A DNA stretch of 64,000 bases from Bryoerythrophyllum caledonicum. Lineage: Eukaryota > Streptophyta > Bryopsida > Pottiales > Pottiaceae. The stretch covers positions 9,403,989 to 9,467,988 of the forward strand of contig OZ020518.1 in NCBI GenBank assembly GCA_963971425.1, written 5' to 3'. Shown piece by piece: positions 41,229 through 64,000 of the stretch; the stretch's first letter is position 1, and every line of letters starts with the position of its first letter. A model generated the notes under the pieces. The model worked only from the letters and a program-made list of their open reading frames with translations. It was not told the DNA's origin and searched no databases. Both the position numbers and the translations under genes were made by a program.

Positions 41229-41255
41229 GGAGATATAGAAACCAACCCGGGACCC
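41229..41255 (+). other. 2A-type ribosome-skipping motif GDIETNPGP in LINE ORF2
   Basis: The ORF2 frame reads LLLLLGGDIETNPGP then Met. It matches the D-(V/I)-E-x-N-P-G-P consensus, at which the ribosome fails to join Gly to Pro and so releases the upstream peptide and continues. A hydrophobic Leu run precedes it, as in active 2A sequences. Such motifs are known at the ORF2 N-terminus of some animal and trypanosome non-LTR elements. Here it would separate a leader peptide from the endonuclease-RT protein. Confidence 0.9.
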
Positions 41256-41893
41256 ATGCCTAATATACTAAAAAGACACCCTACATCACACAAGAAAAAT
41301 GCAAAAATATACTTCATACCTAATACCATAAGATTACAACCGGAATATGGACACATTGCAAAATCCTTCGCACCCGTCCTAAAAAACACACATACACTAC
41401 ACCACACACTTAACACTACACACCCAAACATTGCCCAATACATACAACAAAAAAGCACACATCCACCACCCCACATCCTATATGCCTTAGTAGTCACTAT
41501 TCACCCACAAATAGATAAATGTAACCATCTCCTAAGCCCACAAAATTCGAACACAACTACATGGACCAATACACTCCTACAAACTCTACTAAATTTACAA
41601 AACCCACCAGAACGACACATTCACATCCCACATCCTTACATAAAGTTCCTAGAAGACAACCAAAATATTATAAATCATGAAAACTCAATACATAAGGAAC
41701 TATATAGTTTTTTACATAGTCATACCATACTTCCCTCAAATGAAACAATAAAACTAAAATTCCCTTACCTCCCTAATAATCTCATTAACGAATCATTAAA
41801 ATGTTTAGACCCCATACCAGAATACATCCATCCACCTCCACCACCTCCCTACATCCCACCACAAAATCAAAATCTTAGATCAAATCAAGAAAA

Positions 41894-42660
41894 TACATAC
41901 ATAATCACATGGAATGCCTCCTCTCTAAACACTGCCCTCCCTAGTTTACAAACTTTGGTCACAAACACAGACACACCACCAGCCCTCATAGTCATACAAG
42001 AAACAAAATTATCTGCCACAAAATCTACAAAATACATACAAAATATTTTTCAAAACTATAAACTCATCTTTAATGATACACATGCACTCACAAGATGCAT
42101 TCAACAATGGAGACCATACACACCGGGGCAAGGTGGCCTCCTTACACTAATACACAAAAAACATGCCTTCCCGGGCAACATCAACAAAATTCCTACCCCA
42201 ATGCACATATCACCTTACATTCAAATAATCAAAATTACAAATCACCCACTACAACCATGGTTAATCTTTCACATGTATATGCCATCTCATCCTGAAGATA
42301 CTAGATTTATCATAGACATACAAAACATTATTACAACTCAAATTAATAATAACCCCAACCACACATACCTATTATGTAGAGACTTTAACAGAGACATAGC
42401 ATTAATTGGTCGCCAAAATGGAAATCATAACACCCCCCCTCAACCCATTGATTACCAATGGCGCCGCTTCACAGAAAACTTAAACTTTACCTACATCAAC
42501 ACCGATACACAATTCTCTCGACAAGGTGGATACAACTATAGTGATTGGAGTCTAGTAGATGGATTCTATATAAATACATACAACAATACACAATGCACTT
42601 CTACAACAAACAAGGATATTATTCTCAACTCGGACCACTCACCTATTCAATTACACATCC
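41894..42660 (+). other. APE-type endonuclease domain of LINE ORF2
   Basis: The motifs fall in order: ITWNASS (asparagine motif), VIQETKL (catalytic Glu), MYMPSHP, LLCRDFNRD (usual GDFN, here with Cys-Arg before Asp-Phe-Asn), SLVDGFYIN and NSDHSPI (catalytic Asp-His). This nuclease nicks target DNA for target-primed reverse transcription. The GDFN change may weaken it. Confidence 0.88.
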
Positions 42661-43589
42661 CAAATAACACATTAATTAATAGAATTCCTACAAATCCAAG
42701 CAACAACACTATACGCATAATCAACCCCATTCCAAAAAACAATATAGAAAAATTCAATACAAATTTCTTTGAAGAAAACTCCATAAAAATAGACTCCCTC
42801 ATAAACACTCTTAAAAATAATAGCCAACTATCACAAATACAATGGCAAGAAGCATGCCATACCCTAGACAAACTCATCAATGAAATCTCCAACACACTAG
42901 AACAAACCTGTAAAGCCCACCCACTACCTCAAATGACAAACAGAACTTCCCAACAAGGCGGATATTTACCCCGTAAACTTTCTAAAACTTGGAAACAACA
43001 CTTAACTACATACCATGTTATACAGAAAACCATTAGAATAATAAAAAACAACCCTCGATGGCGTAATCACCCCATATGCAATGAACTCTTAACTCTACAA
43101 CACACTCAAATTCCTACCCCGCTGCCTCCGGATCTACCCCACGATACATGTATAAAAAATATCGCACTAATTGCAAAAAACGCCAACATACAAGCGAGAA
43201 AAATAACCTCTAAATACACCAAAGATAACATTAAAAAATCCATCTCAAAATACAGACAATTATACAAAAATAGCCCCAAAAAAATTAATAGAAAAGTCTT
43301 TAAAAACCTCGAATCTCCACCAATGGACTGTATCACAGATCAATATAATAATATTCTAACCAGCCCCGAAGACATTGCGAATGAAATATTCAACCAACAA
43401 ACAAAAATCAATAGACCATCAGTACCAACATGTAATTATCAACCACAACATCCAATTAAATGTACATGTGCCGTATGTCAATACCCATGGCATGACCTTG
43501 ATGGATTTACCTTTGACAAACGGGGCGAACCAGAAATCCCGCTACATAAATACTTCAACAGAGCCACATACGATACATGCCTGCAAAAT

Positions 43590-44560
43590 CTTGGTAACAA
43601 CAAAACCCCAGGCCCAGATTGCATACCAAACTCAATACTCAAAAACATGCCTCCAAGATTCCACATACTACTATTCATGTTTTTTTATCACTGCTATAAA
43701 CAAAAACAAATACTGACCTCATGGAAATCAAGTGCAACAATTTTACTATACAAAAAAGGTTTTCCATCCATGCTACTCAATCATAGACCAATTGCACTTG
43801 TCAACACAATATATAAACTCTTCACTAGTACACTCACCTATATACTATCCTCATACGATGAAAAATACAAAATCCTACATGAAAGCCAAGAAGGATTTAG
43901 AGCAGAGAGAAGTACCGCTCGACAAATACAAACTATCATAGCCGCACTAGAAGACGCAAGATTTACTAATCAAGATATATACATATTATACGTTGACTTT
44001 AAAAATGCCTTTGGCTCAATAAACCATGCTCGACTACTAGCCATAATGATGGATCTTGGTTCCCAAAAGATGCAACCACACTTGTTGGAAACATATACTC
44101 CCAATCATCCATTTGTTATATTGGTGAACACTTTGGAAGAACAAAACCTATACCTATTCAAAGAGGAACTATACAAGGGGACACCCTTAGCTCATACTAA
44201 TTCATTATTTTCTTAGAACCACTATTCAGATGGCTAGAACGAGGAAACAATGGATACACTTTTGGAACATCACAAGTCACAATAAACTCTGCCGCATACG
44301 CGGATGACCTCGCCGCCATAACTAACAAAATCAAATCTATCCAGATACAGCTCAATAAAATTGATAGATATTGCAAATGGACCGGTATGGACATAGGTGT
44401 CCCAAAATGTGCCGCTACCGGATGCCCTAACAAATCCAAATTGAACCCTACCACTTTCAAAGCCTTAATGCAAGTTTCTAACATTAACTACCGCAATCAA
44501 CCAATCCCTTTTCTACACCAAAATGAACCATACATATACTTAGGAACAAATCTTGTTCCC
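43590..44560 (+). other. Reverse transcriptase domain of LINE ORF2
   Basis: Finger and palm motifs: NKTPGPDCIPNSILK, SATILLYKKG, NHRPIALVNTIYKL, SQEGFRAERSTARQ and YVDFKNAFGSINH (motif A, catalytic Asp). After the frameshift near 44058 come QRGTIQGDTLSS (motif B) and AAYADDLAA (motif C, near 44297-44310), then TGMDIGVPKCAA (motif D/E region). All core motifs are present but split by one shift and one stop. Confidence 0.9.
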
Positions 44561-46059
44561 TCGCTAAATGGAAAATCCAAATTCACACTACAACCACAAA
44601 ACTCATCAAACAATGCAAAGAACTAACAACATGTCCGGCCACCATGAAACAAAAAATAAAAATGGTTGACACCGTACTACGCCCAGGTCTGGCATACAGT
44701 TTCTACAGTGTACCATACTCTATACCAGCCATAAAAAAACTTGACCAACAAATAGTAGCCATACAAAAAACTATATGTGGATTACCAAAATGTATGTCAA
44801 ATGCAATAACCCAACTCCCACATAACCTATTTGGACTTGAAGCTTTCTCCCTCAAAAATGCATATGTCCGATGTATTGGTGAACAACTACAAAATGCTCT
44901 AAACGATAAAGGCACACTTGGAAAAATATATAATGGATTAATTCATTATGTCCTTGCCCAATATGGTGGTGCCGAAAACACACCCAGAATCAAAAAAAGT
45001 GACTACATAAGATCACCAATAACACGAACATTCTTCTTATTAAAACACATAGCTAAAGTCCACCTTAAAAGTACGCTCCCAAACTTCCTCATTAATCCTA
45101 CATCACTAGAAACAATATGGCACCAAGAAACACTAAATCACAACACACTTAATGCCCAACTCTTCCAAAAGCTACTACAAAAATTCCTATCAAAAAATAT
45201 TTTCGAACTAAAACAAATTACTTTCCCTAACGGCACACAAATCATGAACAATGAGGAATTCAAAAACTACCACTTCACCCCATCCAAATTATTAAAAAGT
45301 GCTATAAATATTGCCAAACGACTATTTTGCCACTCTACATGCCCCACTCCATGTCATTCCCCTTGAAACATACACCCATACTCCTATATACTTAAAGACA
45401 CATTCATCACCTTCAACAATAGCATCACCCCAAGAAATATCCCCCCACCAACTAATCCCCCTAACCCCCCACATCCACACCATCCCCGCCCCCCAACGCA
45501 CATCTCCAAAAACCCTATCGCTTATCCCATTAACAATATCATATACCACAAACATATCCAACATGCAGACACAAATAACATACAAAACACCTACACAAAA
45601 TATCTATGCCAATGGCAACACAATGATAACACATACAATAAATGACTTCCCCAACGAGACCTATTTCCACGACATGACACCAATACCTCCACACATAACA
45701 TTGAAAAATTAAAACAATACTACCAAAAAACTCAAAACAAAATTTACTCGAACATCATCCTAGCCCACCACCCCCAAGAACAATTCTCAGACTCTAGATC
45801 CGTAACACCACCCATAGTTATTCCACTCCTAAACATCTATATAGTAGAATGCAACCCCGAAAATAATATCCTTACATCCTCAAACACGATTAAAATATAC
45901 AACAATCAAGCACAGCTATATGAAGAAAATGGCCGACATTTGCACACTACCCCCGTTACTCGACTCCAATGGCTATGGAACCAATACAATACAAAACTAT
46001 AAACTCCTACGAACATTGAACCAACGATCCAATCCTTTGAAACCGAATTAATTTGGCTA

Positions 46060-46550
46060 TAACAAAGGTATAAATACCGAATACCAAAAAATGACCCCCT
46101 CAAAAATGCGCAGTACACAATACCCACACCCATTCTAGACTCACTAATCTCATCCTTTAACATCGAACAATCATATTTTTCCTCCCCGGTCACATGTTCT
46201 ACCAAACTAAAAAAATTCTACTCACCATATGAACGAGACAAAATATTCGGTTCCTTGGGAAAGGCCTTTGACCACAAATGGACCAGTAATGGTGTAGCTT
46301 ACCCCCACAACGAGAAGGAAATGAAACAAGCAATACATTGGGCTCGACTTGCCGCCAAACATGATCCAAACAACACAAATACAATCATCATCACACCGAA
46401 CATCAATTGGTACCAAAACAATAACCAACACTCAAATCCATTTCCAGACTCCCATATCATTGCATTATTTGAAGCAGACTCAATACCATACGAAGAACCT
46501 ACCATCCCGCCCGAGCTAAAAAAAACCCAAATAGAGCCATCTACATTACA
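46060..46550 (+). other. ORF2 linker domain, possibly Dam-methylase-like fold
   Basis: Between RT and RNase H the frame encodes a compact region: KKFYSPYERDKIFGSLGKAF, then HKWTSNGVAYPHNEKEM, ARLAAKHD, TIIITPNINWYQNN and SHIIALFEADSIPYEEP. The pattern (FG...AF..W.....YP......A..A......II.P...WY) recalls the N6-adenine methylase-like domain seen in some retroelements, with YPHN where NPPY would be. This is a weak resemblance and an inference only. Confidence 0.3.
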
Positions 46551-46809
46551 AATACTATGTGTCCATCATCAAAATCAAACCCTCGGCACTCTAGAACAAC
46601 TTGCCGAACTTTCCTCCATATCAGACAATTTAAACATACATCGATTATACACAAAACTGGCCCCACCGACACCTATACAAACCCCCGTAAACCAAAGTAA
46701 AAACTTGTCAAAACTAAGCTATATCAATAATACATTAAACTACTTCATCACACCGCCCCCTCTCCCTAACTACCCAACTCATACCACACCAAAATTTAAC
46801 CCCGCACAT

Positions 46810-47240
46810 AGTTATTACACCGATGGCTCCTTTAAACCACCATAACAAATTAGCCCGGGATCTTGGCACAGAGAAAAAGCTGGTTATGGCATATATAATT
46901 CTACCAAGGAAATTAAACTAGCCAAAAGACTCCATGGACTACAAAATATCCTCAGAGCAGAACTCATGGCCATTCATAAAACACTACAAATCATCACAAC
47001 AAAATACAACAATGAACCCGCACATATATTCACGGATTGTATAAATGCACTCTACTTACTAAACACTCAAATAACACACCCTACATTTCACAATAGCCAC
47101 CCCGACCAAACCATACTAACATCAATGGTCCAAATGTTACAAAACCGCACACAAATCACAACCCTCCACAAAGTGAGAGCCCATGCCAACATTGATGGCA
47201 ACGAACAAGCAGACAAAATAGCAAAAGATAGGCGAGAAAA
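46810..47240 (+). other. RNase H domain of LINE ORF2
   Basis: The catalytic carboxylates are in order: YYTDGS (Asp), LRAELMAIHKTL (Glu), IFTDCINAL (Asp) and HANIDGNEQADKIA (His and Asp). It would remove template RNA during cDNA synthesis. A TAA at 46843-46845 lies between the first and second motifs. Confidence 0.88.
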
Positions 47241-47594
47241 AACACACAAAAATGCCAAAGACCCACACAAACATGCCCATTCCACCCCATACTACTTCCA
47301 AAAATAAAATTGGCCTTCCAAAGAAGATACCCCCGACAAAGGCCCAATTAGATTTTTGGGCATATACCTCAAAAAACAAGACCTCTACAACAACCTTGAT
47401 ACAATCTCAGAAAATATTCCTAACATAGAAAAATGGACTAACAATGATAACATAGACAATGAACTCTCTACAAATTTCTGGAAAAACCCCATCATCTCAG
47501 ACTCACAAATAACATGCCTCATCAAATTCCGAACGGGTCAATATATGGGAAACGCTTGCAAACAACTCTTCTTTGGAATAGAAAGATTTCCATT

Positions 47595-48130
47595 CATAAC
47601 ATGCCCCATATGCCTCTCAACGGACCCCGACACATGGCTTCATGTTCTACTCAAATGCCAAAACCATCACACACTCCCTAATTGTTAAAAGACATAATGA
47701 AGCGGTATGGGAAGTCCGAAACTAATCACCTCCTACAACAAATCGAGATGTTTTATACTAATGAACGTCGGCACCTTTAATAACAATCCACAAGAAAATA
47801 TGGTCCCTCCTTGGCTACTCCCATGCTCATGTGTGACCCAAAGATGTCATTGCAATGCTAGGCTCAAACCGGACATCCTCTGTGTTAGAGGTTTACCATA
47901 TAATGACCCGCCACCCGATAACATCAACCAAGAGTACACCATTCAATTCATTGAATTTACATATTGCAACGATAGATTTCCCCCGGAAACAATTCAAAAC
48001 AAAATAGACAAATACCAACCCCTCATTGATGACATCATAGCCCTTGGATGGAATGTGGACCCCCTTATTGTAATCACATTTGGTGCTCGTGTCACCACCT
48101 TTATCCCATCTATGAAAACTCTAGAGGATA
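47595..48130 (+). other. Zinc knuckle and restriction-like endonuclease of LINE ORF2
   Basis: CPIC...TWLHVLLKC (Cys-x2-Cys-x8-His-x4-Cys) is followed, in another frame, by LIVKRHNEAVWEV and then, back in a third frame (47707-48177), by ARLKPDILCVRG, IQFIEFTYCND and KIDKYQPL. The RHN, PD, (D/E) and K-x2-KY signatures match the restriction-like endonuclease of early-branching non-LTR elements such as R2. It sits at the C-terminus in an element that also has an APE nuclease. Confidence 0.7.
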
Positions 48131-48150
48131 CCTTCAAGATACCCATTGCT

Positions 48151-48239
48151 ATTAACACCATCGCTATTCAATATTAACACCATTAACACCATCGCTATTC
48201 AATATTAACAACATTAATACCATCGCTATTCAATATGCC
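48151..48239 (+). repeat. 31-bp repeat, three copies, at the 3' end of the LINE
   Basis: The unit begins ATTAACACCATCGCTATTC. Copies are at 48151-48181, 48182-48212 and 48213-48239, the last shortened. It overlaps the end of the nuclease frame. Short 3' repeats are common in non-LTR elements and arise during reverse transcription. Confidence 0.9.
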
Positions 48240-49429: not shown

Positions 49430-49810
49430 ATAATATTAGACTTATTCAAAGGCCAATTTACTATCTTCAACCATTGGATTGTCAAGGTAACTACAATAAA
49501 AAGACACCCTAACATTTTCGTATACTTTGACCGTACAGATTGAGAGATAAATGCATTTAAGAGTGCAAATTTGTTTCTTTCTTTAGTGCCCTGACTAGTT
49601 CAACATACTTTGACACAAGATAATGGCATGTTTTTCCATTACATGTTGCATGAACTCAATGGATCTATGTTCTACCTTGTGTTAAGTCATTGCAAGCCAA
49701 AAATCACAAGTAATGGAGGTGTTCTCGATAAGAAAAATGAACTTGCAACTACTAGGGGTATAGAAAGTGGTCCTTTACTAAGGAAAACAATCTTGTTCTT
49801 TAAATAGATA
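49430..49810 (+). repeat. Diverged relative of the 948-bp element
   Basis: Phrases such as 'cattttcgtatactttgaccgtacagattgagagat' correspond to the satellite block around 'aactttgaccgcatggatt'. The far part ('ggatctaaaatccaaac') is shared with 58740-58770. Confidence 0.5.
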
Positions 49811-50164
49811 AATAATTGTTGGATCTAAAATCCAAACTGTGAATAAAATGATCATGTCTTATTTTATCAATAGAACAATCTTCAAAAAAGTAAAATCCTT
49901 AATTTCTATATATTTTCAAGTGAAAACAATGAAGGTTACCAAGAACTTTCCTTCACTACTATCTGCTTAAAAAAAGTGCAAATTTCAACTCTACAGTAGC
50001 ACTATTCATCTCTATAATACCCTGCCCAGCTACCAAAAGGAACATGCTTCTTATGTTTGAAGCACCATAACTATTTCCCCACAAGTCCAATTTTTTTTTA
50101 TAAACTTCCCGTAAAGATAACCCATCTTTCTATTAGCAGGACAAACAATCAGGGTTGCTAACAT
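49811..50164. other. AT-rich spacer
   Basis: Nothing recognisable. Confidence 0.5.
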
Positions 50165-50225
50165 GCGAGCAGTGAGCAGTGAGCGGTGAGCAGTGAGCAG
50201 TGAGCAGTGAGCAGTGAGCAGTGAG
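50165..50225 (+). repeat. Microsatellite (GTGAGCA)n
   Basis: About eight copies of the 7-bp unit with one variant (GTGAGCG). It lies 470 bp outside the first copy of the CTTCGG hairpin motif. Confidence 0.9.
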
Positions 50226-50636
50226 GTAATATTTTTGAAATTTTAGGCCAATTACCTAGAAATTTGTTTGAAGTTTAGTTAAAAATTTAGTCGAGAATCC
50301 TACATCCATTGAAGAAATAAGTCATTAAAAGTAGAGTAATGGTGGTATTTAGGCCATTATTCTACGTCTTTGGAGAACAAAGATGAATGTAGATGGATGA
50401 TAGATTGCATGGATGAATGGAGATGAATGACTCTGTCCATAAATGGTGATGTTTTTAAGGATGTTAAGACTCAGATTTTTTAATGACTTGGAAATGAAAG
50501 ACGTTAGTTGGGGTACTGGGACAATCAGAAAACCGCAATGAGTGAAGTAAGTTTATAGAATTTTAGAGATATATACGAGACAAGGCAGAGAACTCAGACA
50601 AACAACAAATTAACTAGAAAAAAAGGTGAGAGCAAC

Positions 50637-50650
50637 CTTCGGTGCCGAAG
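50637..50650. promoter_or_regulatory. Hairpin motif CTTCGGTGCCGAAG beyond the 3' end of the methylase-like gene
   Basis: A six-base stem (CTTCGG/CCGAAG) around two bases. It lies 287 bp after the stop codon of the minus-strand gene and is the outermost left member of a family otherwise found at 55407-57551 and 63701-63720. The role is unknown: protein binding site, hairpin or terminal-region repeat of a mobile element. Confidence 0.6.
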
Positions 50651-50936
50651 AAGCTTGTTGGTTGTCGTTTAAAAATAACTAGTGACAAAAATCAAGATTA
50701 GAGATGCGTGGGATCAAGGGGAACAAATACTCAAAATTCAGGAAATAGAGTTCTTGGACTTGCAATGCAACGGCTTTAAGATGTATTAGAACACAAAAAT
50801 AGTGGCCCTTTTAGTCGCACTATTAAGTTCAAAATTAAAAGAAAAAACAATGGTAACCGTCGCATGGTCAGGAAACAAAATTGCACAAAATAAAACATAC
50901 TGAAGTAGCCGTAAGCCTACCAACAACCCTGGTGAT

Positions 50937-53900
50937 TTAGGAACTTCCAGCACTGGCTGATCCAGCACTAGATCCATCCTCTAAAGCTTCCACAGCCTCC
51001 AAATCAAGATATTTGTGCACTCTACTATCATATACTCGTGAAATTGGCGCACGATGTGGCGTTTGAATCTCCGCGAGCTGAATCGCAATAGCCTCAATAT
51101 AACAAGGCAAAGACATCGGGCTAGGCGGACTCTTCATTTGATCTACCAAACTGATTAAGAAAACATTGTTACATTAGTGAAGAGAAGTGAGAAATTATAC
51201 TACAACAATGACAATTTGTAGGATAGGAAATTCACCAGAACAATGAGAATGCAAGGATTTGACTTACTTACTCAATCGGTTTTTAGGGACCCTTTTAGAA
51301 GGCCTAACCACAAGGGAGTTGCCAGAAGAATCCGGTTCTTTCCGTTTCTTCTGCATTAAGTCCTCTGACATCTCCAATGATTCGAGAGGGGCAAGCACAG
51401 CTTCAAAGATGTCTGCTTCGGCCTCCAAGACAACCACGTGGCGCCCAATTTTCTTGCAAGCATGCACGCTCGCACCTAGGATCATTGAGGCACCATTAGA
51501 CTTGTAAATAATGAGTGATGATAGAACAAGATTAAAGAGAATAGAAAGTAGAAGAAGTTACCGGTAGATGCGTTGCAGTCTAGGACAACATGCCCTGGTT
51601 GCGAGAAGCTTTCTATCAACAATTGGAGTAGAATAGGGCTCTTTTCTCTAGCCCCTCGCCAAGGTACGTCTCCATTCTTCAATGACATTTTGGCGGTCAA
51701 AAAGTTATGGAGAACTCCCTCACCAACGATGTCAGTCTCCACTTTGCTAACATCCAAGTTTTTCTCAATTGAAAACCTTGAATGAACCTTCTTATCTTTA
51801 TAGGATGTCTTGATGAAAAGAATGATCCAGAATCGCTTTGTCTGCGTATTGCAAAAATAAAAAAATAAGAAGGATAAAGGAAATGAAATTAAATTGAACC
51901 GCAAGATGGACTAAGTGTGGTGTCAAACTTACAGTGCACTTCTCACTCTTATAAGACGTGAGATGCATCTCGTTAACGCCCCACCAATCATGGAGGGGCG
52001 CAAATCCGTAGGCCTCCGCAAAAGAGTCTGTTGCTTCACGAACGGTTGGATTATCAGGATGGAAGAGTACAATAGCTCCGTCATCCTGGAGAGTGTCCCT
52101 AGCGAATTCAAAAATTGGCTCCGACCAGTCCTCTGTCAAATCATTCCAACTTGGAATGACTGAATGGCTAAGGGACAAACCAGGAATGGGCAAACCATCT
52201 GGCATGTCCGCTATAATGAGATCGAGGCAAGCCTCACGCTTGGGAATTCCACCAAGGCGCCGCTCCATCCCTCGACCAGCCTAGCACAGAGGGCATATAT
52301 AATCAACAACAGTATCATGGAAAACTATGCACATGTATATGATCTTAAAAATTAATTAAGTACAATTAGTACGAGAGGTTTGAATTTAATACCTTTTGAG
52401 CAAAAGACAAGATTTTCAACCACTCTGGAGGAAGTTGATGATTCGAAACCATGAAGTCAATGAGCGTTGGAATGGAAGTACACAATGGTAAAACGGTTGC
52501 CTCAACCCCGTGTGTAACAGTGCGTGTGAAGCTCTTGGCATAGAGCTGCGAAGCAGCAAATTCTTCAGTCGTGACAGAAAGCAATTCAGGAGGGTACAAG
52601 GGAGTGTCGGTCACCGTATGAACTTGAGATGGAACTGTAGTTGTAGCTGAAGGAACATGAGGCTGGTCTACTTCAACTGTGGATGATTCCAATTCCTTCC
52701 CCTTAGAGACACTAGCTTTCGCTTTCTTACCAACTATTGGATCCTTCTTCTTCTTCCCCTCCATCGTCTCCAAAGCCTTTTTGCCACCCTTCTTTGTCAC
52801 AATTATAGCTGGCTCAGTTAAATCAGTTAAGTCTTCTGCAAGATCATCGAGATCCTGAACTAGTTCAGTAGGTGGTGCTTGTTTAGCCTTCTCTTCCTCC
52901 TCGTCCGCTGGAGCAAACTTGCGAGGGCACTCAAGGTACCATGGACAGGACTGGTGCTCGGATGAATTGAACGCTCGCAGTTGGGCAGCGGTAAGCATAC
53001 ACATTGAACCCTTTTCTGTCCAGGCGCCGAAAAACTTGGGCATTGATTTTCGATCAATGACACCTTTGCCGTGCAGTTCTCTTTTAAAATATCTACACAA
53101 TAAGAAGGGATCATTAGACATTTCATATACATGCTTTGGATCTAAATTTCTATGTAACTCCGGACTCTCCCTTTTGGCACCAAAGAAATCAAATTGTTCT
53201 CTCGCAGAAATAAATCCAAAAATCATAAAACTACAAATTCTTAAGTATTGAAGCTAACTTATCAAAGTCAATTTCATTAAGACATTATACACCTGAGGTG
53301 AACTTACCGGTAAACGAGTCGTTGCATGGCCTTTTCATTTCCCTCATTTTTGAGGAAGATAGCTGTCCGATCGAATCCTCCTTGCTTTCTGAATATAGAG
53401 TAGAAGGCTTGGTCCCATACAATGATACGGTACTTCTCAATGTAATCAGCAATCTCGTCAACGTTGGAGTTCGTTTCCCAGTCCACATTCAACTTCTCCA
53501 ATGCTAGAGTCTCTTTAACGACTCTTACTGTCGCGGCCTCCAACTGATAGATTAAAAAAAACCACATTAGTGATCATACTTACAGAGAAGTAGATATAAT
53601 GATTGAAGCAATGACATGACTTACCTCAGCCCAAAACGAAGCTTTATGCAACCAAACATCGAGTTTCTCATCTGTCACTCCAGTAGGTGGGAATCTTAGA
53701 GCAACTCGATTCATTTCGCCAGCGTTCCACCATTGCAACCAACGAACCTTGAATTGCGATGGCACAGTAGTTCCCGAAACCTTCTGTAGTTTTTCTAAAG
53801 ACATCTCCGGCTTCTCGAAATTGGACCAATGGTAGTTAATCTGCAAGCATGAGTAGATTTCTCAATAGAATGAAATCAAATTGAATCAGAACATAAATTA

Positions 53901-55272
53901 GAGAGTGGAGGAGAACTGACCGCATCCAAGAATTCGGGGCCATGCTTTGGATTAGCCACTGTTGCCATTTTGTCGAATTCTGTCCTGAAACTTTTTAACT
54001 TTGCGACGGATGCTTCATTCATTGCGTTGTGAATACCTTGAGAAGTCCTGCTCTGTGGAGAAGTTCGCTCCAAATAGAGTCGACCTGCTTCATCTGCAGC
54101 TGCGGCAATCTCATGCTGCAAATTCCATACAATTTAGCTCATCGAGCATACCTAAATGGTTAACCCAAATTCTGAGTCCAAAAAATTTAGGAAACTATAC
54201 CCGATTTAAAAACTTGATGAACACTTCTGATGTCAGAGGATACCAAGCCGTAGTCTTGGGCCGATTCTCACAGGACTTATATTCTTCGTGGGTGAGAAGG
54301 TCCTTAAAATCGGTTAGCTTCAATTGTCCATATGTGTTGATGCGGTGCAAACGATGGACTAGATTAGTCTTCACATGAGCGTTCTCAGTAGAGCTGGAAG
54401 TGAGAACATCATATTCGTTAATATCTAGCCATAAAAATCCAACGAAAAACCATTGGTAATTGACCTTGAACATGTGTCTTGAAAACTCACCGATTGATGT
54501 CATTCATTGCATTAAGTAAAATCCCAATACTCCCCTTGGAATTCAATATGATACAGTCTACCGAGTAATGCCACTTCCGATCCGCAAAATGCATGCGTGA
54601 AATATATCCTGACCAGGCCTGATGCCTGTGATTGCCGTCCCAGATAAAGAACATCTTACAAGAGAACTGGGACCAACTGGCATGCTTTAACAGTTCCGAT
54701 TCAAAATCGTCGTTCTCATACACCCATTGGAGGTCCCAAGTTTTGATAATCTCGTCATCAACCTGGCGACTGTTCCCATTGTCGTCGGTAATGGAAACAT
54801 AAAATACACGGTCACCCTCACGGTATCCATGTACAAACTCAGACTCCAACCTTCTGACATCGGAGAGCAGAAGTGGTCGAACTAATGGTAGAGGTATCAT
54901 CCTGCACAATGGAATCTTCAACCTGGACTGAGAAAATGGATTGAACCTTAACTCTTGAATGATTGAATTCGAATCAAGTTTTTCCTTTAGTTTGAATGCG
55001 TCCTCAGCCTCATCTACGGTTAGATGACTCATACTGTTGTTTCCACCCAAACCATCAATGCTCTTTGATTGGCCTCCAGCTATCGCCTCGCCCGCTACAG
55101 CCGCTGCACCTTCATGATTAGGTGAGTCGCCGATAACAACCGAGCCTCCAATTACATCCTCGACTCTACGCGAAACCTCATCCCCTAACGAAGCAATTCT
55201 TTCACCGTCAGCCTGATCTCTCCCATGTGTAGCCTGAACAGTGACTTCCCGTATTTTCTCGTTAACGTCCAT
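50937..55272 (-). CDS. ParB-like plus N4/N6 DNA methylase-like protein, ten exons
   Basis: Predicted DNA-binding, methylase-fold protein of 1169 residues, presumably nuclear. Minus-strand exons: 55272-54491, 54393-54201, 54115-53921, 53840-53625, 53543-53308, 53230-52393, 52280-51933, 51841-51562, 51475-51268, 51150-50937. Every intron is GT-AG, 76-117 nt, and phases agree throughout, which strongly supports one gene. Residues 115-265 resemble ParB (DGNHRHQAW at 212-220). The middle is helical and Trp-rich. A charged, Lys-rich linker (about 650-730) may carry a nuclear signal. The C-terminus has motif IV (DLIIADMPDG, about 840-849) before motif I (EKSP...PGHVVLDCNASTG, near 1024-1030, then ACKKIGRHVVVLE), the permuted order of prokaryotic N4/N6 methylases. 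The usual (D/S/N)PP(Y/W) is DMPD and FxGxG is NASTG, so catalysis is doubtful. An acceptor-like CAG just before the ATG hints at a 5' UTR intron. Confidence 0.85.
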
Positions 55273-56457
55273 CTGCAAATTGTAATTCCATGTTAGAACA
55301 AAAGACAATGGACCAAGAAATCAACGCTTACAGATCAAACCATTTCAACAAGCATCACTTTTCAGAGTCGAGATCGGAATGGGAAAATAAAATAATTGTG
55401 AAACTGCCTTTGGCACCGAAGGATAAAAATCAGGCTGGAAGTAGATCTCGAGATAAAGAAACTTTGCCAGCCTCAACCTTCAAAATCGAAGAAGCTGCAA
55501 ACGAGCGATTATCAAAAGTCTGGAAGAGAGGGTCTTTCGGCACCGAAGGCCACGGATCGGGACACAATATATTAAATTTCCATGACGGACTTGTCAAGTT
55601 CTAAAAGCACCCACGTCATCATCTGATGCAGAAAGTCGTGAACTCATCACTAATTTCGTCCTTCGGCACCGAAAGCCCTGTGGTCACCTAAGTTCTCAAC
55701 GACATGATGATGTGTAATAGAGTTCTCAAATAGACGTCAGGAGCTAGCATCCGAGACTCACAGGTTTCTATGATTATACGTTGAACCATACTGGATGTCA
55801 ATATTACTTCGACCTTAAACGTAATTTCTAGAAAAATTCGGCCTGCTAGATCATCTCCTTCGCCACCGAAGGCCCTCGGTGTCAAGAATAATTGAAGTGA
55901 AGTGAAGGTCGCGATCAATACTTGGAACCTCACATTCCAACCTCAGTGTAACCTCCAGGCCCACACCACGGCTGCGACACAGGCATACACATCTGCACGA
56001 GCATACATATGAATAATATGGCACACTGAAAATTATGAGCTCATGCTCGACACTGAATAATATGGCACACTGTCGATGGTGCGGCCGCCTCTGTTGTGTC
56101 GTGTCGTGTCGCGGCCGCATGAGCTCCAGTCGATCATGCGGCACTAAGGTGCTCCCTTGAACATCAGCACTTTCTATACTTCGGCACCGAAACCCTGATA
56201 ATACTTTCCATACTTCGGCACCAAAAAACATACACTTCGGCACCGAAACCCTAGTGGGACTGCAAGTCAACACAATGTGCGCACCGATGCCGGACAAGGT
56301 GGGCCTGACCCGGCGGAACTTGGCACCAGTAGCATACACTTCTCCCCACCCCCTCGCGTTACAGGTTGACAACACTCCCTCCTGCAAAGTCACGAGCTCG
56401 ACACAGGCCATCGACACGAGCTCATGACAGGCCATCGACACGTGAAAGGTGAGGCTC
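55273..56457. promoter_or_regulatory. Upstream region of the methylase-like gene with repeated hairpin motifs
   Basis: Copies of the CTTCGGCACCGAAG motif with small changes lie at 55407-55422, 55534-55549, 55660-55675, 55857-55872, 56179-56192, 56213-56226 (half) and 56235-56248. The spacing is irregular, 20-300 bp. The 56080-56125 part contains duplicated GTCGTGTCG and GCGGCCGC. No convincing coding exon was found. It is a candidate control region shared by the two divergent genes. Confidence 0.55.
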
Positions 56458-57000
56458 ATCACTCGTTACCACCATGGTAGGCCTCTATCCTACCATCGAA
56501 AGTTGATAGGGCGGAAATTTGAATGAAACCACGACGCTGGCAAGAGGCCGTGCGATTCAACAAGTTATCATGATTCACCGCAATACCGGCATCGGCATTT
56601 CATCTAATAAATACGTCCCTTCCTGGCCAGCCGAGTCGGGAGTTTGTGCACATATTAGTTCTAGAATTACTACGATTATCCGAGTAGCCAAGGTACCATC
56701 GAAGAAAACTGATTTAATAAGCCATTCGCAGTTTCAAGGTACCATCGAAGAAAACTGATTTAATAAGCCAATCGCAGTTTCAAGGTACCATCGACGAAAA
56801 CTGATTTAATAAGCCATTCGCAGTTTCAAGGTACCATCGACGAAAACTGATTTAATAAGCCAATCGCAGTTTCAAGGTACCATCGACGAAAACTGATTTA
56901 ATAAGCCATTCGCTGTTTCACAGAACAAAAGAGTTTATACTTACACATGCATGGCTTAATCTTTGAGACGTCCATATGACTACTGGCAGGATCAACCAGG
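56458..57000 (-). pseudogene. Rearranged 5' fragment of nuclear 18S rRNA gene
   Basis: The minus strand starts at the mature 5' end (CCTGGTTGATCCTGCCAGTAG, 57000-56980) and follows 18S rRNA through TTAAGCCATGCATG, the ACTCGGATAA...GTAGTAATTCTAGA block and CTATCAACTTTCGATGGTAG to GGTGGTAACGAGTGA, about the first 350 nt of the gene. It differs from typical plant 18S at many conserved sites and contains an internal five-fold repeat, so it is a decaying fragment, not a working rDNA unit. The 300 bp beyond 57000 may be external transcribed spacer. It was probably captured by the surrounding mobile unit. Confidence 0.92.
56690..56919 (-). repeat. 46-bp segment of 18S rDNA repeated five times
   Basis: Copies start at 56690, 56736, 56782, 56828 and 56874, with no spacer. 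Each covers the 18S stretch AAACTGCGAATGGCTTATTAAATCAG...GATGGTACC (interrupted). Copies alternate CATTCGC/CAATCGC, and the first two carry GAAG where the others carry GACG, which implies stepwise doubling. Confidence 0.95.
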
Positions 57001-57535
57001 TCGCTATTCCTTTCAAAAGTACAGCCCCCCAATATTCCTTCACTCATTTCATGCCGTAGCAACAGAAAGTCCCAATTCTATCGATCATTGCTTTAGGTGC
57101 TGACCAGTGTCATATGGTCCCCCACCACCACTGTGATCGTAACCCAGGCCAACCCGTACAACACACCCAACCCCAAGACGCTTGTCCCAACACGTGGTGC
57201 CCTCAATCATGTTCCCACAACACTCAGCCTTCTCCACCGTCACCCCCCAAGAAAACAGCTTATTATATAATATTGACGTCGCTTCTTCATCCAACGAAGT
57301 CAAACCCTTGACACGAAATAGACACCGAAGGCAGGCTGGATCACCTCCTTCGGCACCGAAGGCCGTCAGTTTATAGAAAAGTTCAGAGTCGGTTGCTTCC
57401 TACATCTACACCGACTTACGATGCAGGCGCCACCAAACTCACGAGGCTGCCGCAGTAGAAGCAACATTCTGCTACTAGGTTATCATAGGTCTCGAAGGTG
57501 ATGAGTCTCGGATGCTAAGCAGTGGAAAGCATGCT
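57001..57535. other. Possible rDNA spacer, and a 16S-like 3' end
   Basis: 57001-57300 lies directly upstream of the 18S 5' end on the minus strand and may be external transcribed spacer. At 57333-57350 the plus strand has GGCTGGATCACCTCCTT, identical to the 3' terminus of bacterial and plastid 16S rRNA, preceded by GAAGGCA. It runs straight into hairpin motif 57347-57362. The match is short, so a chance resemblance cannot be excluded. Nothing else was identified. Confidence 0.4.
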
Positions 57536-57551
57536 CCTTCGGCAGCGAAGG
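57347..57551. promoter_or_regulatory. Two further hairpin motifs (57347-57362, 57536-57551)
   Basis: CCTTCGGCACCGAAGG has a seven-base stem with a two-base loop, the clearest copy in the window. CCTTCGGCAGCGAAGG at 57536 has one change. A half copy (CACCGAAGG) lies at 57323-57331. These are the last of the central cluster between the two divergent genes. Confidence 0.7.
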
Positions 57552-57585
57552 AGTCTCATTGACCCTTGCGATATTCACGTCTTCA

Positions 57586-57645
57586 GATCCAGATCGAGAT
57601 CGAGATCGACATCAAGATCGAGATCGAGATCGACGTCGAAGTTCC
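57586..57645 (+). repeat. Microsatellite (GATCGA)n
   Basis: Imperfect hexamer repeats, AGATCGAGATCGAGATCGAC type. This produces artefactual Arg-Ser and Asp-Arg ORFs at 57522-57825. Confidence 0.9.
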
Positions 57646-58130
57646 AGATCCGACAGAACTTCAAAGTTACTTCACATCTTCAGAGTCGAGATCATACTAT
57701 GGAGCTTCATAGAATCAAGATCTAGCGTTAAAGTCTCAGTACCCCAACAAAGAATAGTTCAAAATCCAGATCCGACACCGAAATCTAGAATCCAGATTCA
57801 AACTGACGATTCATTTCAGCAATGATCGACAAACTTTGCGAATGTGCTTGAAGCATAAGAGTGGCGGACTGAGATGATCGACTGCCGAACACACCTGACG
57901 AAGTGGCGAAATGCTTGCAATCCTTGCGAACTCAAACCCTCTCAAACCCTTCGCGCACGCACTGCAACACTGAGAACATCAGGCCGCTCCCAAAAATCTC
58001 CCTGAAAACAACTTCGCCCCCTCTCCGACAACACTCAAAGGAGAAATCAAACAGACGTGAACCTCCCCAATGACCTACCAACTTCTCATCCATTATACGC
58101 ACATCCATTCAAAGGCACAACTTCATTCAC
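57646..58130. other. Spacer without recognisable gene
   Basis: Mixed composition, no splice-supported exon, no motif. Confidence 0.45.
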
Positions 58131-58770
58131 ATGATTACATCCCGTTTCACACCAAAACACTTAAATAGAACTACTTGGAGATGCATGGTTGAAAGACTAA
58201 TTGAAACAATTTATTACCACTATTAACCATTTGATCTAAAATTTTAGTCATCATACTTTGACTCAAGATATAGGCATACTTTCCGCTTCCCCTTGACGTA
58301 CCCCTAGAATTCCTTGACAATTTCACACCAAAAACACTTCAAAACTACCCTTCTAAGATGTGGCGTTGCAATACTGGGTGTAAAAACTTCCTACTATATC
58401 CAACCGTAGGATCTTCTAGTTCACTACTACAATGTGACACATAAAAAATTTCATAAAATTTGACCGTACGGATTGTAAAAATCAGAGTCTAGTGAAAAAT
58501 GCACTGTGGTTTTTTCGTTCCCAGTGCGGACAGTGTCAGCGTTCTTTGACTCAAGATATTGGCATACATTTGTACTACACATTGCATAATTCTATGGATC
58601 TATGTTCTACCATGTGGTGGTCATTACACGCTCAAAATCACACATAGTGAAGGTGTTTATAATAAGAAAATATATCGCAGATACTTCAGGTTTAAAAAGT
58701 AGCCATGTATTTTGGAAAGCAATTTAATTTTTTAGATAGAAAAAAAATTTAGATCTAAAATCCAAACATA
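58131..58770 (+). repeat. Fragmented TTAA-element copies
   Basis: 'tttcacaccaaaacactt' (about 58145) and 'acccctagaattccttgacaatttcacaccaaaaacacttcaaaac' (split across 58308-58350) mark two starts. The block 'tttgaccgtacggatt' follows at about 58460. Ends are incomplete, so these are remnants. Confidence 0.6.
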
Positions 58771-58870
58771 CTGCAAAGCCCCCAAAGCCCACTCATGATG
58801 TAGACAAAAATTCAAAACCTCATTAGAAAATTCAAAATATTACACCACATCAGAAAAGTTATGAAATTAC

Positions 58871-59233
58871 CCTTTGAGATTCATCGCCCGAAAAATCCAT
58901 GTTTTCCTTGTCATATGCTGACTCCACAGGGTTGTTGTTGGTCATGCGCAAATTGTCATCTTCTCCCATGACTATAACACTTTGCATTCCTTGAACGATG
59001 TCGTCCCTATTGCCTAATAAACTCGCAATGCCGGTCTCCTCCTCCTCGCGCTCGAAATGGTCACCACACACCATGTTATCAAAAGTTGAACTAAGCGAAG
59101 TCCCATCCAAATCCAATCTCCTAGACCTTGTTCGTCGTGCCATTCTAGACTTCAGGAGCTGCTTTGGAGTGGAAAACCTGAATCTAGACTTATAGCGTCT
59201 GCGCTTCACCTCTTCCTGCATTCCTCTTTTCAA
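58871..59233 (-). CDS. Possible exon of an unidentified minus-strand gene
   Basis: About 121 codons with a basic N-terminal half (KRRRYKSRFRFSTPKQLLKSRM, split, then RRTRSRRLDLDG) and an acidic C-terminal half. A GT donor follows AGG at 58871. The reading begins within a few bases of a possible acceptor (GTGTAG, about 59242). I do not recognise the product. It faces away from the transposase-like gene and could be a third gene of the same unit, an upstream exon of a longer transcript, or noise. Any continuation would pass into repeat DNA at 58.1-58.8 kb. Confidence 0.35.
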
Positions 59234-59891
59234 CCACTACACATTAACGTTAAAGCATTTCCACACTATAGTTATGCGGTCCCACTTGCTACCCTAAAGT
59301 TCAAAGATACCAACCACTCAGCTATATTGAATAGGCGTAAATATTATATGTAATGACAATATTAGTTCATAACCAAAATTAATCAATGCTAACTGTCATT
59401 TGCATTATTTGCCCACTACCTTCTACTATGATATGTTAGAAATAAACTCAAGTATCACAATATTTAAAACCAATTTCTAAATACTCGTACCCCACGAGAT
59501 TAAAGCATTGTCACTTGCACCCCACGAGATTAATGCTTTAAGATTTAACTTGCAATAACCTTTCTTGTAGCCATCATTTTAGCTTCCTTTCCACTTTTTC
59601 ATTAGACTATTAGATCAACGTGTATCGTAACATAATTTTAGACATTTCTAATTTTATACATGCTAGCCGCCAGCTGCTGCTCATCTGTAACTAGCACTTC
59701 TAAAAAACTTACCAAACTACTAAAACTTACATTTTAAATTCACTAAATTAATATACTCACAACGTCTCTATTCTATTTCAACCCTTCTTTTTCTACCATA
59801 TATCCATTCATACAAATTCCCACATTCGTAAGAGTGTTCGTACCGGGTCAGTTCCGTAGTAGTAGCAGCAGTTTACGTCCCCCCACACGCC
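59234..59891 (+). promoter_or_regulatory. Upstream region of the MULE-type gene
   Basis: AT-rich. It contains a direct repeat, CCCCACGAGATTAA(A/T)GC, at about 59490 and 59520. A pyrimidine-rich stretch precedes the ATG, which has CCATGG context (59891-59896), a good plant start context. No TATA box was assigned. Confidence 0.5.
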
Positions 59892-62800
59892 ATGGCTATG
59901 GCAACTATTCGTGGTGGAGATGGAAGCGTTCCGATCTCCGTCCCTCTAGGTGACGATGACGTAGCATGGGTCTTTGAATCGATGCTCACTCATCGTTTCA
60001 ATTATGCTATGAGGTCTATGTGGATTGAGGAGGAAGTCTTTGATCCAAACGGAGAGTTAGTACTGTCTACAATTATGCAGAAGAAACATATCCATGATGG
60101 TGACCTTCTCTGGAGACTTTTGCCAGGAAAATATAGGGTTTACGGAAATCCAATCCTTTGCCCCTCTGTTCCCACTTCAGAGTCAAAGAAGCCGACTGTG
60201 CATTTGTCTCGTCCAGCTCCAGTCAAAGTTGAATCATTTGATAGTGCGACTATCCTACTTAGTGAGTCCTCAGATGATGAATCCGTTCCTAGATCAAATT
60301 CCCGTTTCTCCTTCCTATCTCCAATTACAGAAACTGTCTTTGAAGTCCCTGAAACTTTGTCACAGTCAGTCTCTACTCTGCCATTTCAGAATTCACGTCC
60401 TCCTCTTCATCCAGCCTCAGATCCTACAAGCATCCTCAATTGTCTTAAGCAGTTACAGTGCAGACCACGTGGAAAGAGTGATTTGAAATTTTTGGATCTA
60501 GATGCTCTACGGTGTGAGAAAGTCCAATTTCTTCCTTCAGAGTTCAATGGTGACATAATGTTTGAGTTCCCACCCATGCCGAGTAATTTGTCTCCATCAT
60601 ACGCTCGTAAGATGGAAGGGATGGACAAAAGATATGATGGTCATCTATGGACCAAAACACATACTACTAACATTGTCAATGACTATGGTCTTACCTTCAG
60701 ATACTCAAGTTGTGTCGGTCACCTCCAATGCATGAACGACAGTTGTCCGAGATTGCGTCGCTCCGGCTTCCACAACGACACGGAGTGGGATGGCATTACA
60801 ACGCACGTATTTCTTGTAGGGGAGCAGCCACCGGCGCATTCCACTGTCCAATGTCGAATTTGTAAGTCTCCGCCCTCTTGCATTGCCTCTTGTCCGTGCA
60901 GAATGTATTACATTCTTAACAAGAGTGGAATTGGAAGAGCTTGTATTCACGTGGGCACCCACCAACATCCGACCGCAAAAGGAGTATGTCGAGAGTCTGT
61001 TCAAAGAGTTTCTGAGCTTGTGAGTAATGAGGTCCACAGAACCCCAACTGGCAAGAACTCTGCAATTGCTCTTGCCGCAAGTAAAGAGTTCTTGTCCACC
61101 GAATTGTTTGCACTTGATCGGGAGGGAGTCCCTGAACCCCTTCGTGGAGATTCCCTTGTGGCGGTGATGGAGAGATTTCGAATCCTAAGCTCACCCAACA
61201 TCCGCAACGCTATCTCTACATTACGTCCCAATGCAAATGGAGGACCACTAGACAACATCATCAAACTCAAGTTGAAGAGTCCCTACGCATACATCCAAGA
61301 TAGCGTTTTCCCGGGACAAGGAAAAGATAAGGTGTACCTCTTCAAGATGTCTGAAGAAGGTCCAGGGAGCGGTGTGGATCTCGTAAGGCGAATGCAAATT
61401 GGCGGAGACCTGCAGAACTCCTGGATCATGTTCGACCATGTCAAACGTGTGAAGAGTTGGACTACAATGGCATGCCATGTGTACGATCCTGAATACTGTC
61501 GGGTGATGAGCATCGCCATATGTGATATGCAGAGCGAGGACGTTGAGTCTCAGAAGTTGATGTGGTCAGCTCTCAACAATGTGATGGCTCGCCACGGTAT
61601 CACAAACCCTAATTTCAAGGGTTTCATGGCGGATAGTGCGCAGGCTAACTGGAACGCTGTGAGGATAATCTACGGAAGCGGCGACCCAACAGCAAAGATG
61701 GTTGATAGAGAGACGACATGCTTTCTTCACTGGGTAACGTCACTCAATCGGCACACAAAGAAGCTTATCCGAACTGATTTACAAGACCAACATATCAAGC
61801 TATGTAGACAGTATAGAGATGCAAAATCATTTGAAGAGGCCGAAGTATTATACCTCGGCATTAAAGGTTGGTGGCTCTCATCTCGTGCAGCAACGGAGGA
61901 GGCTGTACGTGAGTTGGACGATTGGCTCGGTTTTTGGCACTTCCGCTACCGCCAATGGGGTAGCTTCATGGACATGGTAAGTTATCACAAACCTAACCCT
62001 ACATTGATTTACCTCCTTCTATACATACTCTACGTCTTCTAAACACTAACCCTAAGCCTATGTATCTTCGCTCTTCGATTTCACATGCCCTAACCTAAAT
62101 CCCTGAATTCTGTTGACTGCTCGACAGGACCTCGACATTGAAGAATTGGCTGAAATGCCATCCTGCAACCTATCTGAGACGGTGCACAATAGATGGTTAC
62201 AAATGTCGGGCAACAGAGGGACGTGCTTATATGTTGCTACGACGGACGATATGATGCGTGCAATGATGCAAACCACAAACTATTGGGCCTATTTACAGGG
62301 TCACGCTTCGGGAACTGGGCCCCACCTCGACGAACTTCGTTTACGGGCAGCCCGACGATCTAAGGATCCACTAAAGGTTGCTACAGCAATCAAAAAGCTC
62401 CCTGGCGCAAATCAATTTGCTACTCGAGTTCCCCATTTGGAAGGCGAGGAGGTATTTGGATCCACGAAGCGAAAACTAGATCTTCCGCCGGGATCTGATG
62501 AAGACTCTCACCGCCATGATAAGGTGAACTACTCTCATCCCCGTGTACAAACCCGCTCTACTCGATCTCGAACAGACGCCGGTCCTTCAAGTGTGGTTAT
62601 TACTCCACCCATAGAACCATTGTCAGACCGGGGCCACGCAACTTCAATCCTAGAAACTGAGTGCAATCCACATCAATGGCACATTGCTCGGTGCACTAAA
62701 GTCACCAAGAAGTGCTATGCCGTCCAAGTGGGCCAGAAGACCAAATGTGGTGCCAAGGTATGCCGTGACAAGGTAAAGGGCACTCCTGCCCCTACTTACA

Positions 62801-63516
62801 ATGGTAAAATGACAGAGTGGGGGACCAGATTAATTATTTCTTCTGATTTCTGGTTTTGTTCGGACGATATTGTGCGTTGTGTCCAAGCTGGCAAGTTTAG
62901 ATATGTGCACGATTGGCCCCCTCTTCCAACTACTTGGCCAATTGCACGTGGTACAAATCTCACTAAGGCTGAGATTCTGGCATTGGAAGATGGGGGATTT
63001 GAGCTTCAGACGAAGGACTTTAATATGTCTCCTAGACGCCTTTTCAACACGTCTCCTTCTGTAGCTACTTCAAACACTCCAAGCCCCACCCCCCCAGATG
63101 CGGGTGGCCATCCAACAAAGCGTTATGGAAGGACGATAAAGAGGAATCCAAAGGCACCCACCGTGGATCACCTTAACAAATGGGAGACTGCTAGGAATGT
63201 TCGGGCAACCGTGAAATCCGTTACCATGATTCCATACCCTGGTTATGGCAGAATCATCACATTGGACTCGGGTATCTTCCCGAAGCAGAAGACCTATCTA
63301 ATTTCACTTAGTGACTTGCCGTCTTGCACTTGTGATTATTTTGTTACCATGAGCACTGGTGCACTTGGCAAACGGAAACCGTGGCTGAACTGCAAGCATT
63401 TGTATTATGTTTACAGATACCTCTGTAAGGCTGATTGCCAAGTCGACAAATATGTTCACGCTGCGAGTCTCAGTTTTGATGAGATTCAACAACTTCTGCG
63501 AGGCACTGATCTCTAA
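59892..63516 (+). CDS. MULE-type transposase-like protein with SWIM zinc finger, two exons
   Basis: Probable Mutator-superfamily transposase or a domesticated relative. Exons 59892-61976 and 62128-63516, one GT-AG intron in phase 0, 1157 residues, no stops or shifts. The N-terminus (about 1-75) is a small domain of the kind preceding MULE transposases. A Ser/Pro-rich linker follows. Residues about 265-390 hold a Cys/His cluster ending RACIHVGTHQHP, resembling WRKY-GCM1 or FLYWCH DNA-binding fingers. The core (about 515-690) has candidate catalytic Asp in WIMFDHVKRV and FMADSAQANW with a CFLHW signature, as in MULE cores. The third acid (Glu, near RAATEEAVRELDDW) is tentative. The C-terminus has SWIM ligands CTC...NCKH (1095, 1097, 1117, 1119). 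The intact frame suggests recent activity or selection. Confidence 0.8.
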
Positions 63517-63682
63517 ACTGTTAGCCTAAACCTAGGTCGCCTTCATATAGTTAGGCGCATGGTTATTTCTTTCATGTGCATAGGGACCTAAACTGCAAAA
63601 CTGTTATATTGATAGGTTATATAATTGCATTGTCCTTCACTTTGTTAGGAAGTCATTTATCCATTCTAATGGTTTTAAAAAA
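63517..63682 (+). other. 3' flank of the MULE-type gene
   Basis: AT-rich. It presumably contains the polyadenylation site, but no single signal can be singled out. Confidence 0.4.
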
Positions 63683-63720
63683 AATTGGAGCTCCAATTAT
63701 GCTCTTCGGTACCGAAGAGC
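63683..63720. promoter_or_regulatory. Two adjacent perfect palindromes, 16 and 20 bp
   Basis: AATTGGAGCTCCAATT (63683-63698), then two bases, then GCTCTTCGGTACCGAAGAGC (63701-63720). The second is a fully palindromic version of the CTTCGG hairpin motif. It lies 185 bp past the stop of the MULE-type gene, as the motif at 50637 lies past the stop of the methylase-like gene. Confidence 0.8.
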
Positions 63721-63744
63721 CCATTTCACCCTAGCAATATTTTT

Positions 63745-64000
63745 CTTCTATCCTTTTTTAATTTGTTTTTTATTCTAGTTTTTTTTTGGTTTTTTTTTTT
63801 TTTTTTTTTAAATTTGTTCTGGTGTTTTTTTGTGTTTATGTTTGTGTTAATTTTTCTGCTTTTCTAATTTTTTTAGTGGTTTTTTGGTGTAATTCTTTTT
63901 GTATAATGTCTTTCATTCATTTTTATTTTCTGTGTATTGTCTTTTTGTAGTTTTTTTTTTTTTTTTTTTTTCTGTAGTGTTCTTTGTGTTTTTTTTAGGT
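63745..64000. repeat. T-rich low-complexity tract running to the window edge
   Basis: Long T runs mixed with G and C. Open frames here are compositional. Confidence 0.85.

Follow-up and report, generated by a model that had tools for sequence, protein, structure and literature searches.

A spliced ParB-methylase-like gene and palindrome arrays in an apparently mobile transposon of Bryoerythrophyllum caledonicum

Results

Two divergent genes in one element

We analysed a 64,000-nucleotide stretch of the genome of Bryoerythrophyllum caledonicum (contig OZ020518.1; C6:9403989-9467988 in our numbering), hereafter the window, and searched 437 Mb of the same genome. The right-hand part of the window is occupied by most of a DNA transposon carrying two divergent genes (Table 1): a gene that joins a ParB-like domain to an N4/N6-methylase-like domain, and a transposase-like gene. 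As the features described below show, both belong to one transposon, of which the ParB-methylase-like gene is the second gene. A first-pass annotation had placed it beside a transposase gene; the link to a mobile element is retained here, while the idea of mere neighbours is not.

Table 1 Features of the transposon in window coordinates (L001, locus of a full-length relative)
Feature	Position	Strand	Basis or remark
DNA transposon, part within the window	50150..64000		Homology with C3:32677412-32692236 and flanking direct repeats GGACAAACAAT
Left target-site duplication	50139..50149		GGACAAACAAT; shortens to 10 bp when its leading G is taken as part of the element at the far end
Left terminal inverted repeat	50150..50225	+	CAGGGTTGCTAACATGCGAGC, then AGTGAGC-type heptad repeats; inverted counterpart at the right end beyond the window
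Palindrome TTCGGTGCCGAA	50638..50649		Downstream of the ParB-methylase-like gene
ParB-methylase-like gene, exon 10 and stop	50937..51150	-	Frame and L001 comparison
Exon 9	51268..51475	-	Motif I end GASVHACKKIGRHVVVLE
Exon 8	51562..51841	-	PWRGAREKS; motif I start LDCNASTG
Exon 7	51933..52280	-	Methylase-like domain begins; altered motif IV IADMPDGLPIPG
Exon 6	52393..53092	-	Includes low-complexity linker
Exon 5	53308..53543	-	Frame and L001 comparison
Exon 4	53625..53840	-	Frame and L001 comparison
Exon 3	53921..54115	-	Frame and L001 comparison
Exon 2	54201..54393	-	Open frame and junction sequence in relatives
Exon 1	54491..55272	-	Residues 1-260; ParB domain about 110-260
Nine TTCGGCACCGAA-type palindromes, at most 1 mismatch	55409..57549		Clustered between the two genes; starts 55409, 55536, 55662, 55859, 56180, 56214, 56236, 57349, 57538
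Transposase-like gene, exon 1	59892..61976	+	695 codons
Transposase-like gene, exon 2	62128..63516	+	Whole protein 1157 aa; close to the C-terminus, CTC...CKH looks SWIM-like by eye
Perfect 20-bp palindrome GCTCTTCGGTACCGAAGAGC	63701..63720		Downstream of the transposase-like gene

Ends and copies of the transposon

The homology of a second copy, located at C3, runs from 50150 to 64690 in window numbering. The right end lies at about 64688/64689, some 690 bases past the window (locus L005), and the element is about 14.54 kb long. Both copies start with CAGGGTTGCTAACATG and heptad repeats, end with the inverted counterpart, and are flanked by identical 11-bp direct repeats (GGACAAACAAT in the window and GGTGTTCCCTA at C3). 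Ten further copies were inspected: both ends were found in eight of them, with duplications of 9, 10 or 11 bp, and the end pattern was found at one end only in the other two. A target-site duplication of 9-11 bp is present in all 10 copies in which both ends were seen. Since the first base is G in all 11 right flanks read, our preferred reading is an element CA...TG with a duplication of 10 bp (9 bp in one copy); given that G also occurs in 6 of 10 left flanks, an 11-bp duplication is possible. The direct repeats at 49459-49837 and 58392-58767 were considered as long terminal repeats and rejected, the true ends being 50150 and about 64689. A dispersed AT-rich repeat was noted at 33387-33907, 49459-50006 and 58392-58767 (68-71% identical), the last copy lying inside the transposon.

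The family is large. At least 147 scored matches to exon 1 (1781 candidates), at least 150 to exon 7 (1649 candidates) and at least 69 to the transposase exon (3191 candidates) were found in the genome. Exon 1 copies that are 99-100% identical and stop-free occur in C4, C14 and C7, and the best other transposase copies are also 99-100% identical. By these signs, the transposon has moved recently, and it looks autonomous. The first-pass annotation had suggested that the gene may be an old transfer now used, among other possibilities, for self-recognition. A reading along this line, an old bacterial transfer turned host gene, is lent some colour by the prokaryote-type domains and the known ParB-N6_N4_Mtase fusions of phages (available text of PMC12704722). 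However, the copy number of both exons, with several copies 99-100% identical elsewhere and flanked by target-site duplications, refutes it for the window copy, and we hold it to be almost certainly wrong.

The two genes share one element. Among 55 transposase matches of at least 1500 bases, 29 have a divergent exon-1 match within 12 kb on the 5' side of the transposase, and none has a same-orientation exon-1 match on that side; this count drew on 66 of the 147 exon-1 rows. Four of the 26 unpaired matches were examined, and all four carry a divergent ParB open frame on the 5' side. A Pfam search with the transposase at E values up to 1 returned only DUF7841 (0.18) and no profile of Mutator-like elements (MULEs). 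A KDZ-type element is also conceivable. From the duplication length and by eye, the transposase looks Mutator-like: duplications of 9-11 bp agree with the range of 8-11 bp given for MULEs in the consulted part of PMC6446971. The dN/dS value of the transposase between the window and C3 copies is 0.23, and the C3 transposase has one internal stop.

Structure of the ParB-methylase-like gene

The ten exons, separated by nine GT-AG introns, join into a single open frame with 1123 codons before the stop (3372 nt). The first-pass annotation had described an intact ten-exon gene spanning 50937..55272; both the structure and these outer coordinates hold, whereas its length of 1169 codons was wrong. Three kinds of comparison bear on the gene model. 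One is the exon 1/2 junction: TENxHVK follows the junction point in six relatives, five of which are intronless there. Another is the full-length relative on locus L001, which is identical to the window protein at 332 of 1021 aligned residues. Its introns match window introns 1, 2, 3, 4 and 8 in aligned place and phase; the last one agrees with window intron 9 in phase but sits elsewhere in the alignment, and window introns 5-7 have no counterpart in this relative. The last is the C3 copy, in which all nine GT and AG pairs are kept, with the introns differing from those of the window by 13.1% and the coding sequence by 5.3%; this copy has one internal stop, and gaps touch 17 of its codons. The dN/dS values between the two copies, a comparison that the first-pass annotation had proposed, are 0.29 for the whole gene, 0.49 for exon 1 and 0.23 for the methylase-like part, and point to purifying selection. 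From the shared intron places and phases, together with the splice pairs and dN/dS of the C3 copy, the spliced intact gene appears confirmed beyond chance. As a separate observation, L001 is CADCWO010000058.1, which GTDB lists with a metagenome assembly of a cyanobacterium; the presence there of a spliced transposon-type gene marks it as evident eukaryotic contamination.

The ParB-like domain and the middle region

The ParB-like domain announced by the first-pass annotation has no match to Pfam or PHROG profiles in a search with the window protein; the assignment stands on structure prediction, which gives the exon 1 domain a ParB-CTPase fold. A single-sequence structure model was of poor quality. 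The profile of alignment A1 returned only chance-level matches in Pfam and, among solved structures, only a ribosomal protein (E 0.14). Box II (the P motif) is well kept: DGNHR is present in 104 and DGNH in 113 of the 120 relatives listed, and alignment A1 (50 rows) has the box II arginine R216 in 90% or more of its sequences. ParB proper also has a helix-turn-helix and a C-terminal dimer domain; two pieces of the middle region were tried against Pfam, and no match was found.

A methylase-like domain with an altered motif IV

The methylase part fared better in the profile search, which upheld the assignment to N6_N4_Mtase: PF01555 matches residues 825-1009 at 35.6 bits (cut-off 26.7). The spliced L001 relative scores 25.1 bits, slightly under the cut-off, and the longest single open frame of L001, which lacks the motif I end, gives no PF01555 match. 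Among solved structures, CcrM is the closest relative in sequence (E 1.5e-4). Nothing was found in the protein collection with the full-length protein (8000 candidates sharing most words scored) or with the methylase region (605 candidates scored), nor were relatives found in the viral contigs searched; in phages and plasmids, only the methylase part was matched, at 20-25% identity among the best 20 of 264 records.

We read motif IV in 24 sequences: the window, L001 and 22 further sequences. Two near-duplicates were omitted from the alignment, namely L092, which hardly differs from L090, and the C3 copy, whose motif IV equals that of the window. The catalytic motif [DNS]PP[YFW] is missing in all 24, and neither DPPY nor SPPY occurs. 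The first aspartate is kept in 23 sequences and the proline two places on in 19, while E or D occupies the position of the aromatic residue, three residues on, in 21; one reading, YMSY, appears decayed. The aromatic residue of DPPY/SPPY stacks on the flipped base. A methylase that had decayed in one copy only was rejected as an explanation, the altered motif IV being present across subfamilies. Motif I reads LD..A[SA]TGAS against DPFFGVGTT of CcrM, with the first glycine lost and the second kept. This altered motif I is kept, as is the acidic residue ending the strand that follows, in the seven sequences in which both were read, and PWRG[AGP]R[EQ]K precedes motif I in six of these, the seventh having WWGPREK. 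Since motif I is retained in altered form and motif IV is changed, the methylase fold and perhaps SAM binding would be kept, while base methylation through the usual mechanism seems unlikely. The domain is accordingly called methylase-like here, an active enzyme, as implied by the first-pass annotation, being unproven.

These features also bear on a self-marking model, put forward for such proteins by the Ectocarpus authors (available portion of PMC12477816), in which the transposon's DNA would be modified by its own active N4-cytosine or N6-adenine methyltransferase. The PF01555 score, the CcrM match and the conservation around motif I agree with this. The loss of DPPY/SPPY, aromatic residue included, in 24 of 24 sequences, with D at the first place in 23 and an acidic residue in place of the aromatic one in 21, speaks against it, and we consider such self-marking quite unlikely.

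Palindromes in the non-coding parts of the element

In the window, palindromes of the TTCGGCACCGAA type gave 12 matches, counted by strand, at 11 positions, against 0.16 expected. The exact core TCGGNNCCGA occurs seven times, in all cases in the element's non-coding parts; neither the element's coding parts nor the 50,149 window bases preceding it contain the core. Genome-wide, CTTCGGYRCCGAAG was found at 173 sites, against four for the reversed control. The site spacing at C3:32.68-32.69 Mb is similar to that in the window, and L001 has three TCGGNNCCGA sites upstream of its gene.

The core was picked after viewing the window and L001 and was tested on sets holding near-identical copies, in which it is present within 1.5 kb upstream at 29 of 30 same-genome exon-1 loci (window copy included). 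Among these, all nine loci with 63-69% protein identity (L036-L044) have it. For 20 copies at 42-58%, 12 upstream regions have the core and 8 do not, as compared with 0.33 of 20 expected from first-order random sequence; TCGG was the top of all 256 arms there (12, with 6 for the next arm). In the intergenic regions of six elements, TCGG again ranked first of 256, being present in all six with 49 sites, while the next arm reached three of six with 3 sites.

The sequences around the core differ: the flanks are CCTTCGGCACCGAAGG-like in the window, CCCTCGGCGCCGAGGG or its CA form in L087 (17 of 18), GTCTCGGATCCGAGAT-like in L086, L088 and L001, GCTTCGGCGCCGAAGC in L085, and AGCGTCGGTACCGACGCT in L059 and L060. 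By this comparison, the palindromes appear to combine a shared core with subfamily-specific flanks. The ParB-methylase-like protein probably acts on those in its own transposon's non-coding parts.

Two other explanations of the sites were weighed. The palindromes may be bound by the transposase or by an end-pairing ParB-like protein as a transposition cofactor with no anti-silencing role. Sites nearer both ends (50638 and 63705) would suit this, as would the site pairs of L006-L008, loci without a ParB open frame, as non-autonomous derivatives might have; moreover, maize mudrB is apparently required for integration (consulted part of PMC6446971). However, most sites lie mid-element between the two genes, and one element (L087) has up to 18, seemingly beyond what end pairing needs, so that we regard this explanation as unlikely. 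Alternatively, the palindromes may be promoter or insulator elements for a host factor, the protein acting elsewhere. Their position upstream of both genes fits, but the flanks vary between subfamilies around a constant core and the pattern is confined to the element, being absent from the preceding part of the window; we give this little credence.

In L006, L007 and L008, the palindromes are 1.5-1.6 kb apart, and element ends were not found there by end patterns; these loci are perhaps non-autonomous derivatives. At 57334-57350, GGCTGGATCACCTCCTT, which we take to resemble 16S rRNA of bacteria or plastids at its 3' end, runs into a palindrome, and the C3 copy matches the stretch 57332-57364 twice. 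The central region also holds a fragment of the 18S rRNA 5' end (56378-56954, minus strand; Rfam 117.7 bits), a stretch in which a 46-bp piece is repeated about five times and which is unmatched in the C3 copy.

Other features of the window

A 948-bp satellite is present in about nine copies at positions 1-8667. The copies are 99.8-99.97% identical and each has a 34-bp palindrome; diverged pieces of the satellite occur elsewhere in the window. Cytochrome P450-like open frames were recognised by eye at 12867-14720. A 3.1-kb stretch at 26579-29638 aligns to its own reverse complement at 83% and contains an open frame (26807-27442) that is presumably Tc1/mariner-like. Open frames at 40028-48177, which are strongly skewed towards C over G and include the 2A-like peptide GDIETNPGP, are assumed to be non-LTR retrotransposon-like.

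Discussion

Accessory genes of transposons with ParB and N4/N6-methylase domains are already known from algae: the transposon Sola1-1_Ec32 of the brown alga Ectocarpus carries one, and green and red algal cases are cited with it (available portion of PMC12477816). According to that portion, the window protein resembles the Sola1-1_Ec32 protein in its length of about 1,100 aa and in its ParB-like and N4/N6-type methylase domains, and its gene likewise lies on the strand opposite the transposase within a large DNA transposon (21.5 kb for Sola1-1_Ec32). Compared by description only, the window element differs in its 9-11 bp target-site duplication and its Mutator-like transposase (by eye). The altered motif IV (24 of 24) and the palindrome arrays with a common core go beyond that account, and no mention of either was found in the accessible text of the literature on such ParB-methylase proteins.

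The parS sites of bacterial ParB are palindromic. The window protein shares with bacterial ParB, Noc and KorB the predicted ParB-CTPase fold and the conserved arginine, and with the phage ParB-N6_N4_Mtase fusions the joining of ParB to PF01555, as far as these are described in the excerpts of PMC12704722; the same excerpts name sulfiredoxin as the commonest eukaryotic ParB form. Unlike these bacterial and phage proteins, it is encoded by a eukaryotic, spliced gene and has a long middle region and an altered motif IV. The rotifer N4CMT and the Marchantia 4mC methylase are, like the window protein, eukaryotic N4-type proteins of bacterial origin; however, N4CMT has SPPY, and the paper on them (PMC8885841), in which the word ParB is absent, presents both as genes recruited by their hosts.

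Taken together, we lean, at somewhat better than even confidence, towards an accessory gene of a recently mobile transposon, whose protein recognises the palindromes of its own element and wards off host silencing. Anti-silencing or control of a mobile element, which the first-pass annotation had offered among its suggestions, thus remains the best guess. VANDAL elements are Mutator-type transposons. This relation is given under the Hiun entry in the consulted part of PMC6446971, and in Arabidopsis their VANC accessory proteins counteract silencing (PMC5735166, PMC10398659, available text). The likeness lies in a transposon accessory gene and in short, subfamily-specific motif arrays in non-coding parts. 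The differences, within the text available, are that the VANC motif YAGTATTAY is non-palindromic, that VANC is described without ParB- or methylase-like domains, and that its effect on methylation has been demonstrated, whereas that of the window protein is a proposal.

In the proposed mechanism, the protein, rather than the transposase, would recognise the TCGGNNCCGA palindromes with their subfamily-specific flanks in the non-coding DNA of its own element. The predicted ParB fold offers possible loading at a palindrome and spreading: the protein might load onto such a site, possibly in a nucleotide-bound state like that of ParB, and then spread and cover or mark the element. Such covering or marking would keep host silencing off and both genes on, the role that VANC has in VANDAL, and the methylase-fold domain, having lost its base-methylating motif, may still hold SAM. 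A more specific version, which we offer only tentatively and think less probable than the general one, is a ParB-parS-like clamp in a eukaryotic nucleus, with a lineage-specific protein and co-evolved TCGGNNCCGA palindromes, that spreads over 14.5 kb and whose methylase fold, carrying a novel D-x-P-E site, would serve as a switch gated by SAM or catalyse something other than base methylation.

The changed catalytic motif is a caution against concluding from the names of the domains alone that such genes produce 4mC or 6mA. The escape of plant transposons from silencing has been worked out for VANC proteins. The present family is large in one genome, has moved recently and is under selection, and it has a testable site code in which each subfamily builds its own palindromes on a single core. 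Should these palindromes be bound by the ParB-like protein, the ParB-type clamp of bacterial chromosome partition would enter the biology of eukaryotic transposons.
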